Below are positions 3,243 to 6,609 of a stretch of 20,035 bases of DNA, one piece after another. The notes under the pieces are model-generated. The model made no database searches and was not told where the DNA came from. It saw only the letters and a list, made by a program, of their open reading frames with translations. Source of the DNA: Candidatus Sumerlaeota bacterium (GTDB lineage: Bacteria; Sumerlaeota; Sumerlaeia; JAFGJS01); contig JAFGJS010000021.1 of NCBI GenBank assembly GCA_016928995.1, positions 1 through 20,035 on the forward strand. Direction: 5' to 3'. How positions within the stretch are numbered: position 1 is the stretch's first letter; each line of letters begins with the position of its first letter. Made by a program: the position numbers and the translations under genes.

Positions 3243-3337
3243 GCACAGAGCCACGGAGCACGCAGAGAGGCTATGCTCATAATATTTCCCAGCACATATA
3301 GTGCTTTCTCTGTGTCCTCTGTGCACTCTGTGGTGAT
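3243..3337. repeat. CACAGAG-rich inverted repeat element, copy 1
   Basis: The left arm (3243-3269, GCACAGAGCCACGGAGCACG...) is an imperfect inverted complement of the right arm (about 3307-3334, TCTCTGTGTCCTCTGTGCAC...). The middle has its own hairpin AGCAC-ATATA-GTGCT (3291-3305). The right arm abuts the stop codon of the dehydrogenase gene. In the operon's direction the folded element is followed after about 10 nt by a T6 run, so it may also serve as the operon terminator. The arms match those of the element at 6471-6609. Confidence 0.75.
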
Positions 3338-3341
3338 TTTA

Positions 3342-4271
3342 TCAGTTCATACCGATCTTACCGAGCATGTCCTGCAACGCGCGCGCGGAGTTTTGCAGGC
3401 CGGTTTTTTCCTTCGGCCAAAGCTCGATCTCTTCGTGCGACAGCACGCCATTGCGGCCAATGACCGTCGGCACGCTCAGGCAGACGTTGCGAATGCCATA
3501 CGCCCCTTGCTGCAACGACGAAACCGGCAGCAGCGTCCGCGAATTGAGCGCGATGGCATGAATCACCTCGCGCATCGCCACGCCCACGGCCCAGCCCGCG
3601 CCGCCTTTTTTCTTGATCACTTCGGCGCCGCTGGTTCGCGCCCGTTCCGCCAATTGCATCATTAAACCCGGATTCAGCGCCTTGACGCCGGACAACGGCA
3701 GGCCGTTCACTGACGCGCTGGACCAAATCGGCACCATCGAATCGCCATGCTCGCCCAGCATCAGCGCCTTCACTTGCGCCGGCGCCAGTTGCAGCGCTGC
3801 TGCAATCATCGATGAAAAACGGCTGGTATCCAGCATCGTGCCCAGACCGATCACCTGCCGCCACGGCAGATCAAGCCGCCGCACGGCCGCCTGCGTGAGC
3901 ACGTCCACGGGATTCGACACGACGAACACGATGGCCTCGCGCTTCATCCCGGCCGACGCGATGCTGTCCAGAATCTGGTTGAACAGCGCCATGTTGCGGT
4001 TGATCAGATCGAGCCGCGATTCATCCGGCTTGCGGCGCAGCCCTGCCGTGATGACGAAAATATCGCTGTCCTTGCCGCGAGCATAATCTCCAGTGTAGAT
4101 CCGCTGATCCGCGCACATCGCCGCTCCGTGCAGCAAATCCAGCGCCTCGCCTTCCGCCGCGTCCTGATTCGCGTCCAGAATCTGAATCTCGCTCACAATG
4201 CCGCCGCACTGCAAGGCAAACGCCGCGCAAGCCCCCACGCGCCCGCCGCCGCCGATGATGGTCACTTTCAT
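3342..4271 (-). CDS. Lactate/malate dehydrogenase family enzyme (BMC-associated)
   Basis: A 309-residue NAD-dependent 2-hydroxyacid dehydrogenase. The Rossmann motif is at residues 7-13 (GGGGRVG), and Asp33 at the end of strand 2 favours NAD over NADP. The catalytic set is present: Arg86 (DESR), Asp148 and Arg151 (GTMLDTSR), His175 (GEHGD). The substrate-specificity position before KP is Arg80, as in malate dehydrogenases, where lactate dehydrogenases have Gln. The GTMLDTSR block reads more like lactate dehydrogenase, so the true substrate is open. I chose the ATG at 4271 because GGGAG lies 8 nt upstream; an in-frame ATG 18 nt earlier would precede that site. It is the last gene of the BMC operon. 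Enzymes of this family are known in PVM-type loci, where a role in NADH recycling or lactate/pyruvate conversion is inferred. There is no obvious encapsulation peptide. A 476-bp cassette separates it from the aldolase gene. Confidence 0.9.
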   Translation of the reverse strand: MKVTIIGGGGRVGACAAFALQCGGIVSEIQILDANQDAAEGEALDLLHGAAMCADQRIYTGDYARGKDSDIFVITAGLRRKPDESRLDLINRNMALFNQILDSIASAGMKREAIVFVVSNPVDVLTQAAVRRLDLPWRQVIGLGTMLDTSRFSSMIAAALQLAPAQVKALMLGEHGDSMVPIWSSASVNGLPLSGVKALNPGLMMQLAERARTSGAEVIKKKGGAGWAVGVAMREVIHAIALNSRTLLPVSSLQQGAYGIRNVCLSVPTVIGRNGVLSHEEIELWPKEKTGLQNSARALQDMLGKIGMN

Positions 4272-4294
4272 TATAGAAACTCCCGCCAAAATTT

Positions 4295-4324
4295 CTTAAT
4301 CCTAATCCTAATCTTAATCCTAAT
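4295..4324. repeat. Left hexamer array of the cassette (5 units)
   Basis: Five uninterrupted hexamers CTTAAT, CCTAAT, CCTAAT, CTTAAT, CCTAAT. Positions 4307-4325 form a perfect 19-nt inverted repeat with 4752-4770. Confidence 0.9.
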
Positions 4325-4341
4325 CGAACCATCAAACTTCC

Positions 4342-4711
4342 TTAATGCTTCCGCCATTTCGAATTGCTCTTAATCAGACCGATCAGCATCGCCACAATAC
4401 TGGATAAGTATTCTTTGCCTTGTTTTGCTTGCTCTCGATCGATTAATTGTTTCAGCGCCATCACATCCAAACATGCCGCGCATTCTAAAGCGGAGCCACG
4501 CGCAATGTCAAAAAAAACGTCGACGATCATTCGATGTGAACTTTCCATTTCCTTCTGCGATGTTGAGAGCGATAGAAATCGACGCCCGATCAATTTGGTT
4601 AATCACCGTATTTGTCTTGGAATGCTTCTCAAGAATTGGCGTCAGCCATTCTATAAATTGAATGGCTGTTTGATAAACCTGCAATTTTTCGTGGTCGAAT
4701 GCTGTCGCCAT
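4342..4711 (-). pseudogene. Four-helix-bundle protein (23S rRNA IVS protein family), frameshifted
   Basis: The first part (4711 down to the T8 run) encodes MATAFDHEKLQVYQTAIQF.. and IDRASISIALNIAEGNGK, ending DRRRFF before a stop. The second part, in another frame, continues FFDIARGSALECAACLDVM and ends near 4342. Together they give the family's usual sequence of about 122 residues, with the hallmarks L.VYQ.AI, SI..NIAEG and (FF).IARGS..E. The break falls exactly at a run of eight T (plus-strand A run at 4510-4517). Removing one T restores the whole frame. It may be a real decay mutation, a sequencing error, or a site of polymerase slippage. Proteins of this family form pentamers of helical bundles; their function is uncertain. 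The gene is on the operon's strand, inside the hexamer-flanked cassette. Confidence 0.85.
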
Positions 4712-4740
4712 TCTGTGTTTTATTCTCAATTTTGAATAAG

Positions 4741-4770
4741 ATTAAGATTTGGATTAGGATTAAGATTAGG
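4741..4770. repeat. Right hexamer array of the cassette (5 units)
   Basis: Five tandem hexamers ATTAAG, ATTTGG, ATTAGG, ATTAAG, ATTAGG, inverted with respect to the array at 4295-4324. A further degenerate unit, AATAAG, precedes it at 4735-4740. Confidence 0.9.
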
Positions 4771-4780
4771 ACGAAAAAAT

Positions 4781-5860
4781 TTATCCTTGATTCGTTCGCT
4801 TCATAATCTCATCCGTGATGCGCTTCACGACCTCCTCGGCTTGCGGGCTGTAATCCACGTGGCCGTCGGGCAGTTCCTCGCCGCAGCGCGTGGCCACGCA
4901 GGTCACGCCCGGACGCCAATCGGCGTCCATCCGGCCGAGTTCCGCTTCCTTCAGATCGAAACGCGGATCGGGAATCTCCAGGCCCTTCTTCAGATTCAGC
5001 AGATCGCGCATCTGGCTGCCGGTGAATTTCTCCGGCGTCTTGCCCAGCTGCGTTGTCACCATGATCGTGCGGCAATACGCCTCCAGGATTTCCATCTTGA
5101 AGTATGCGTCTTCCACCGACAGATGGCTCCACGCAACCACGCCGTGATTCGCCATCAGGATCGTGTTATGCTCCGGCGCCAGCTGCGCCACGTTCAGCGC
5201 CATGTTTTTCGTTCCCGGCGTTTCGTACGCCGCAATCGGCACCTCGCCGATGAACACCTCGAACTCCGGCAGCATCTTATTCGGCGGTTTGACGCCAGAC
5301 ACCGCGAACGCCGTGGCATACGGCGGATGGCAATGCGCCACGGCCATTGCGCGCGGCACAGCCTTCATCACTTCAAGGTGCATCAGAATTTCGCTTGTGC
5401 GGCGCTTGCGCCCGGCCAACTGATCGCCTTCCAGATTCACCAGGCAAAGGTCTTCGGGCTGCATGAAGCCCTTCGAGACCAAGGTCGGCGTGCATAGCGC
5501 GATGTCCGGCTTCACGCGAATCGAGATATTCCCCCCGTTGCCGTCCACATACTCGCGATTCCACATCCGCCGTCCGATATCTACGATCGCTTTTTTCAGT
5601 TCCAACAGCTCCGGCGAATTCAGATAGGCTTCCAGCACTTCCTTCGGTGAATCCGCCGTTACATTGTCGAACCGTGACGCGCCGCCTGTCGTTTTCACGC
5701 CACCGACCGATTCGCGCCGCGACTCGGTCAATTTCGCCCGGCCTTCCAGCCCGAGCAGATCCCGCGCCGAAGGCGTCAGAATCGCGTCCGGCGGCAGTTC
5801 CGTCACGCCGCCGTTTTTCAGCATCGCCTCAACATCCCGCGCTGTAATCACTTTTTTCAT
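4781..5860 (-). CDS. Class II aldolase (fuculose/rhamnulose-1-phosphate type), BMC cargo
   Basis: A 359-residue class II aldolase/adducin-family enzyme. The fold starts at about residue 85. Phosphate-loop residues are GNGGNIS (107-113); the catalytic acid is probably Glu157 (TSEILMH). The metal ligands are His176 and His178 (HCHPP) and His239 (NHG). The expected reaction is cleavage of L-fuculose- or L-rhamnulose-1-phosphate to DHAP and L-lactaldehyde, the entry to PVM-type compartments. Sequence alone does not choose between the two sugars. The N-terminal 40 residues (VITARDVEAMLKNGG and ILTPSARDLL) are outside the usual aldolase fold, which is about 215 residues in FucA. They resemble extensions seen on BMC cargo, so a targeting role is inferred. 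A C-terminal extension after about residue 290 is also present. The start is 10 nt after the stop of the preceding BMC-P gene, and GAGAAAG precedes the ATG. Confidence 0.9.
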   Translation of the reverse strand: MKKVITARDVEAMLKNGGVTELPPDAILTPSARDLLGLEGRAKLTESRRESVGGVKTTGGASRFDNVTADSPKEVLEAYLNSPELLELKKAIVDIGRRMWNREYVDGNGGNISIRVKPDIALCTPTLVSKGFMQPEDLCLVNLEGDQLAGRKRRTSEILMHLEVMKAVPRAMAVAHCHPPYATAFAVSGVKPPNKMLPEFEVFIGEVPIAAYETPGTKNMALNVAQLAPEHNTILMANHGVVAWSHLSVEDAYFKMEILEAYCRTIMVTTQLGKTPEKFTGSQMRDLLNLKKGLEIPDPRFDLKEAELGRMDADWRPGVTCVATRCGEELPDGHVDYSPQAEEVVKRITDEIMKRTNQG

Positions 5861-6470: not shown

Positions 6471-6609
6471 TTCACCACAGAGGGCACAGAGAACACAGAA
6501 ATTTTTTGAGAGAAACCAAAAAAAACTTCAAGTTTTCAAATCCGATAAATCCTGTTCATCCTGTCAAGAAAAAATCAGTTCTCTGTGATCCTCTGTGCGC
6601 TCTCTGGTT
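6471..6609. repeat. CACAGAG-rich inverted repeat element, copy 2
   Basis: The left arm TTCACCACAGAGGGCACAGA (6471-6490, continuing to about 6500) is an imperfect inverted complement of the right arm at about 6577-6609 (TTCTCTGTGATCCTCTGTGC...). The interior holds a different repeat-like phrase, AATCCTGTTCATCCTGTC (6548-6565). The arms match those of the element at 3243-3337. It fills nearly the whole spacer between the aldehyde dehydrogenase stop (6619) and the BMC-P start (6445) inside the operon. Confidence 0.8.

Follow-up and report, generated by a model that had tools for sequence, protein, structure and literature searches.

The window (the whole stretch of 20,035 nucleotides analysed, from the genome of a Candidatus Sumerlaeota bacterium) holds a microcompartment operon in which an insert of about 480 bp separates an aldolase-like gene from a dehydrogenase-like gene, both co-directional with the gene carried by the insert (Table 1). 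The preliminary description had placed this gene in the four-helix-bundle family of 23S rRNA intervening-sequence (IVS) proteins, and the assignment was confirmed by a match of its N-terminal part to PF05635 (E = 1.6e-11) and by a match to the NCBIfam model TIGR02436, 'four helix bundle protein'. Beyond the T8 run, the PF05635 domain carries on with its second half in the next frame, a break which the preliminary description does not mention and which may reflect a sequencing error, a pseudogene or slippage. With its frame broken, the window copy is probably dead or moved in trans, and intact relatives of the gene are present elsewhere in the same genome. One in-frame stop was also seen in three other four-helix-bundle genes, namely L347 (G622:C1), L037 (G001:C198) and L151 (G056:C36).

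Table 1. Positions of the insert, its host genes and the gene-less array pairs in the window.
Feature	Position	Strand	Remarks
Gene-less inverted 9-mer array pair (CACAGAG.. / CTCTGTG..)	3243..3332		shortly past the end of the dehydrogenase gene
Downstream host gene, L-lactate/malate dehydrogenase-like	3342..4271	-	start 22 nt past the array
Array downstream of the insert gene	4294..4325		about five hexamers, + strand TCTTAA TCCTAA TCCTAA TCTTAA TCCTAA TC
Four-helix-bundle gene (PF05635/TIGR02436, hexamer subfamily)	4342..4711	-	ATG 4711-4709; two frames
T8 run, site of the frame break	4510..4517	-	TGA in frame at 4510-4508
Array upstream of the insert gene	~4734..4771		six hexamers, inverted copy of the 4294-4325 array
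Upstream host gene, class II aldolase-like	4781..5860	-	9 nt between its stop codon and the outer array edge
Second gene-less inverted 9-mer array pair (CACAGAGGG.. / ..CCTCTGTG)	6475..6605		between two operon genes

Inverted hexamer arrays lie on both sides of the gene, as had been described. The longest perfect inverted match between the two arms was found to extend over 20 nt (4306-4325 with 4752-4771), so that the match reported earlier stands and its length of 19 nt is corrected. The locus reached an inverted-repeat score of 25; among 800 mismatched combinations of left and right arrays drawn from other loci, the 99th percentile was 16. The heptamer AAAATTT, a candidate target duplication, is present on both sides of the insert; its sequence is almost identical to its reverse complement, and one of the two occurrences shares bases with the aldolase stop codon. 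In L013, a locus from a genome in a different family within the class, these two genes are separated by 27 nt without any insert, and the window therefore carries an insertion. Comparison of the aldolase-dehydrogenase junctions thus yielded the empty spacer expected from the initial claim of an insert between two metabolic genes, and the insertion is well supported.

Eight PF05635 places were found in the window's genome, most of them with short arrays on both sides. The units differed between the loci, comprising AAGGCATC-like 8-mers, GGGTCTA 7-mers, TCGTTC 6-mers, TAATCC 6-mers and others, so that these loci are not copies of a single element with constant terminal repeats. A left/right inverted-repeat score of at least 14 was taken as the threshold for an array pair and applied to a named sample of 80 PF05635 loci from a scan of public genomes, which were chosen by protein alone and of which 71 had full flanks. 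The sample ranges over Clostridia, Proteobacteria, Bacteroidota, Acidobacteria, Planctomycetota, Chloroflexota, candidate phyla and Methanophagales archaea. The threshold was reached by 72% of the matched pairs (n = 71) vs 4% of the 800 mismatched left/right pairs, and, with flanks sampled at a distance of a further 1,200 bp, by 2% of 59 pairs. Chance tandem repeats are refuted by these two controls; the arrays are closely bound up with such genes, contrary to the unrelated simple repeats that would have spoken against the first reading.

With loci from relatives of the window's organism and other genomes included, 145/185 PF05635 loci had inverted arrays at this threshold (at least 8 of the 185 being loci fetched twice), and about 20% of PF05635 loci were without a clear array pair; the search for arrays at both ends of four-helix-bundle genes, proposed in the preliminary description for the host genome and its relatives, thus gave a positive result. 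Gammaproteobacterial loci chosen only by similarity to XCC0516 of Xanthomonas campestris (PDB 2GSC) had matching arrays in 14 of 17 cases. Within a locus, the left array matches the right array, whereas the units (6-, 7- and 8-mers) differ between loci; a period of 7 was the most common, followed by 8 and then 6. At least two PF05635 matches, mostly at scattered places, were present in 21 of 61 genomes, and tblastn gave no match among 50,697 phage records. We conclude that the existence of this cassette class is well supported, and the data point to array-gene-array cassettes being a widespread, poorly recognised mobile element.

Several related arrangements were observed in the course of the survey. 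In a type I-D CRISPR operon on plasmid pANA02 of Anabaena sp. 90 (L237, 883-1251), cas6 and cas4 are separated by a cassette that carries a four-helix-bundle gene and has heptamer arrays of the unit GGTGACA. A longer protein with a partial PF05635 domain (L008, G000:C81:23595-23807) is accompanied by a 9-mer array (GTCCACCTT) at a single flank, and further proteins of 200-280 aa resembling it also carry a partial PF05635 domain. On contigs C2, C3, C7, C12 and C13 of G047, 19 partial PF05635 matches were found, often arranged in divergent pairs with a few hundred bp between the partners.

Mapping of the array period onto the protein tree revealed clustering, with 13 changes vs 20.3 after shuffling (0/200). 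The subfamily of the window protein (EKLDVY..IAEGNGK) was accompanied by hexamers at 7/7 loci. In a prospective test, where a profile of this subfamily was run against 395 Bacteroidota genomes, all six loci found had hexamer arrays, so that hexamers accompany 13/13 members overall, six of them predicted beforehand in another phylum; the profile gave no match at the cut-off in 369 gammaproteobacterial genomes. A 9-mer label given to L166 was discarded, as it derived from a nearby G-run array and the locus is a hexamer locus by eye. Array similarity also rose with protein identity (Mantel r = 0.21, 0/60 permutations), mainly among close relatives (>65% identity).

The information content of the 7-mer units was about 8 bits within a locus and 2.4 bits across loci, compared with a null value of 1.9; the unit sequence is therefore largely locus-specific. 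A strong universal consensus was sought and rejected, since only a weak AG was evident in the 7-mers and a weak TCG in the first seven 6-mers, with nothing above null in the 8-mers, and the strand of the hexamer unit was not conserved in Bacteroidota. Both solved relatives of the protein (2GSC and 2RLD) have five chains. From the correlation of period and protein, it is likely that the protein reads its own arrays; the coupling may also stem from shared descent of gene and array rather than from binding.

The same architecture was found with a second gene family. Genes for GxxExxY proteins (PF13366, TIGR04256; PDDEXK_3) in the window's genome and its relatives had inverted arrays of 8-10-mers at 26/30 loci (L205-L233, L057-L064). 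Their units, such as CACAGAG, CGCAGAG and ACAGATGAAC, are more uniform, and because they resemble one another, mismatched GxxExxY pairs reach the threshold in 10% of cases. A de novo scan of 348 kb, made up of stretches of the window's own genome and the window, returned only five inverted array pairs by its criterion, gene-less pairs among them. The gene-less pair next to the dehydrogenase gene is possibly a miniature cassette.

Evidence on the exchange of cassettes was obtained from one intergenic spacer in Flavobacterium. In a survey of 150 genomes, about 47 hold a full-length cassette match in this spacer, and 30 of these were analysed in detail (L271-L300). The array type (CARAG or CTRAG) was the same in the left and right arm in 30/30 cassettes. 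On the tree of the host flanks, the array type required 10 changes (shuffled mean 10.2), and on the tree of the cassette genes it required one. Between L283 (G078) and L297 (G135), the 480 bp upstream are 100% identical and the 500 bp downstream 94-98% identical, with 98-100% identity of the flanks where they adjoin the insert, vs about 70% identity of the cassette gene and 47% of the upstream array. Where the upstream gene reaches its last codon the identity breaks off, and it is restored from the start codon of the following gene onwards; four other pairs repeated this pattern. Exchange of the cassette as a discrete unit is thus well supported at this one site, and the small mobile unit postulated initially gains support from this swap between near-identical flanks. 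Homologous recombination with break points very near the cassette edges could in principle bring about the same swap.

Three further Flavobacterium genomes carry a different PF05635 subfamily in the spacer (L318-L320), and most other genomes have only a gene-less hairpin there, which could be a miniature cassette or a terminator. In L301-L308, L311, L313, L314 and L317, this hairpin is composed of AAGAGCC/AAGATAA-like 7-mers. Clean empty Flavobacterium sites were sought; most of the non-matching genomes had a gene-less hairpin or another cassette instead, and no target duplication was readable. Some cassettes are old and have been kept, as is evident from sister pairs such as L291/L293 whose cassettes are near-identical, and the cassette gene is under purifying selection in Flavobacterium (dN/dS 0.07-0.10). 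No transposition event and no excision product was seen at any of the surveyed loci, nor did any donor-recipient pair show a clean target duplication.

A cassette of this build was also detected within an rRNA gene. Locus L240, on plasmid AZO_p2 of Azospirillum lipoferum 4B, lies inside a 23S rRNA gene (Rfam LSU match, 372-2171), where an insert at 830-1298 without annotated features contains a four-helix-bundle gene with inverted 7-mer arrays at its ends; by reading of the sequence, it was placed at the helix-45 position. At least one classical rRNA IVS therefore has the array-gene-array build, which substantiates the IVS-like character noted at the outset, and the rRNA IVSs look like one special case of the cassette class.

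On balance, we favour the reading that the window insert belongs among small selfish DNA cassettes that form a widespread class and encode a protein that probably recognises its own arrays. Such a cassette would consist of one short gene, for a four-helix-bundle protein or elsewhere a GxxExxY PDDEXK-like protein, and its two ends would be formed by inverted arrays of 6-10 bp tandem units. By recognising its own array units, the protein may mark or pair the cassette ends at the DNA level. The four-helix-bundle (PF05635) family is not known to include a nuclease, and movement would be completed by host or other trans-supplied factors; no common trans-acting enzyme was identified for the cassettes surveyed. 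The two arms of a locus are matched, not identical, and may be kept so by copying of one arm from the other via a hairpin or strand-switch intermediate, while drift and slippage of the units would give each locus its own sequence. Most copies are located in operon spacers and are co-directional with the upstream gene, and this sense orientation would reflect read-through expression from the host operon and toleration of the insert at such positions. The broader proposal is of a new class of mobile DNA, the ends of which are inverted 6-10 bp arrays re-made in each element lineage and read by the element's own protein, and which would include the rRNA IVSs, the orphan heptamer arrays (STRRs and those of Xanthomonas and Geobacter) and the GxxExxY genes; here, we consider the case evenly balanced.

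Were the insert instead to act at the RNA level, as in the 23S rRNA IVS, its arms would pair in the transcript and be kept for the stem, RNase III would cut this stem, and a cut in the spacer would spare the neighbouring genes. The window transcript does fold, with the arms closing a near-perfect 28-bp terminal stem (z = -3.85), and the Coxiella IVS, which is 428 nt long, has a 28-bp terminal stem that is cut by RNase III in vitro (PMC4990558). Sense-oriented inserts in spacers and the same ends on the helix-45 rRNA insert also agree with an action on RNA. In an RNA-selected stem, however, arm mismatches read on the gene strand should favour G-U over A-C, and the 103 loci analysed gave 125 G-U vs 126 A-C, a comparison that is without a positive control and partly reflects unit register; for Flavobacterium, the counts were 24 G-U vs 48 A-C. 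The lack of a G-U excess argues against a selected RNA stem, without excluding it. Of the transcript stem with the gene in its loop, as proposed in the preliminary description, the folding is thus retained and the service of the arms as an RNA stem is not. Moreover, a processing stem explains neither the strict tandem periodicity nor a period that follows the protein subfamily, and about 11% of the cassettes are antisense to the upstream gene. At 72/81 loci, the upstream neighbour is co-directional, its stop codon lying within a few nt of the array, and the need for read-through expression explains this bias as well as RNA processing does. Taken together, an RNA-level insert appears unlikely.

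A domesticated regulatory gene, the protein of which uses the arrays as operators to control its own expression or that of the operon, would agree with the purifying selection, with a period that follows the protein and with the long residence at one Flavobacterium site; presence and absence would then reflect ordinary gain and loss. Operators need not flank a gene on both sides in inverted copies, however, and the host genes are unrelated between loci, the unit was swapped between near-identical flanks, and about a third of the genomes, as counted above, have mostly scattered multiple matches, so that we regard this explanation as decidedly improbable. Ordinary slippage repeats, placed around these genes by chance or through an annotation effect, might be considered because arrays of 6-9-mers are common in some genomes (PMC4692102); with mismatched pairs and far flanks near background and so few inverted array pairs in the de novo scan, we give this explanation almost no credence.

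Both the four-helix-bundle and the GxxExxY proteins occur commonly and lack an explanation, and the tandem heptamer arrays of Nostoc, Xanthomonas and Geobacter have hitherto been without an accepted function. The present analysis joins IVS mobility, the two protein families and the heptamer arrays in a single testable hypothesis, with exchange of a cassette as a unit well supported at one site. Were the protein to read its own arrays, this family would offer a natural collection of proteins that differ widely in the short repeats they recognise.

Mobility of IVSs has been proposed since 1990. The IVS of Coxiella was called selfish, its mobility being presented as an unproven hypothesis (PMC4990558). 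Like the 23S rRNA IVSs with an S23p/IVP gene (Coxiella, Leptospira), the window insert is of similar length and has a PF05635 reading frame (here in two frames), complementary ends able to form a terminal stem, and a host RNA that is transcribed through it. Unlike these IVSs, it lies in the spacer between an aldolase-like and a dehydrogenase-like gene rather than inside an rRNA gene, and nearly all copies described here are likewise located between protein genes. Further differences are that the cassette ends are tandem arrays of locus-specific units, that a second gene family has the same architecture and that the cassettes show no sign of RNA-stem selection.

Orphan arrays resemble the cassette ends in being 7-8-mers, which are often paired in inverted orientation in Xanthomonas and Geobacter and are of the STRR type, GGGGA(C/T)T, in Nostoc. 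Xanthomonas has 70-75 inverted pairs of GGGAATC arrays in spacers (PMC4692102), and paired octa-/heptamer 'global regulator binding sites' lie on opposite strands in spacers of Geobacter (PMC2700814). Orphan repeats were reported to be generally absent from mobile elements (PMC4692102), and such arrays, unlike the cassettes, are described as G-quadruplex, regulatory or unexplained sequence. No connection of orphan arrays with a mobile unit, or with genes for four-helix-bundle or GxxExxY proteins, was found in the openly available literature, and prior work may exist.

The occurrence of gene-less inverted spacer pairs beside gene-bearing copies is shared with MITEs and with REP/REPIN sequences and their RAYT transposases. 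In those systems, a fixed end sequence is read by a known transposase, whereas the end sequence of the cassettes varies by locus, no transposase is present, and no fixed terminal inverted repeat, the mark of IS elements and MITEs, was common to the PF05635 copies in the window's genome. The Avd accessory proteins of diversity-generating retroelements are four-helix bundles that form pentamers; the cassettes are too short for a reverse transcriptase or a template repeat, and what they have in common with Avd is the four-helix-bundle fold.
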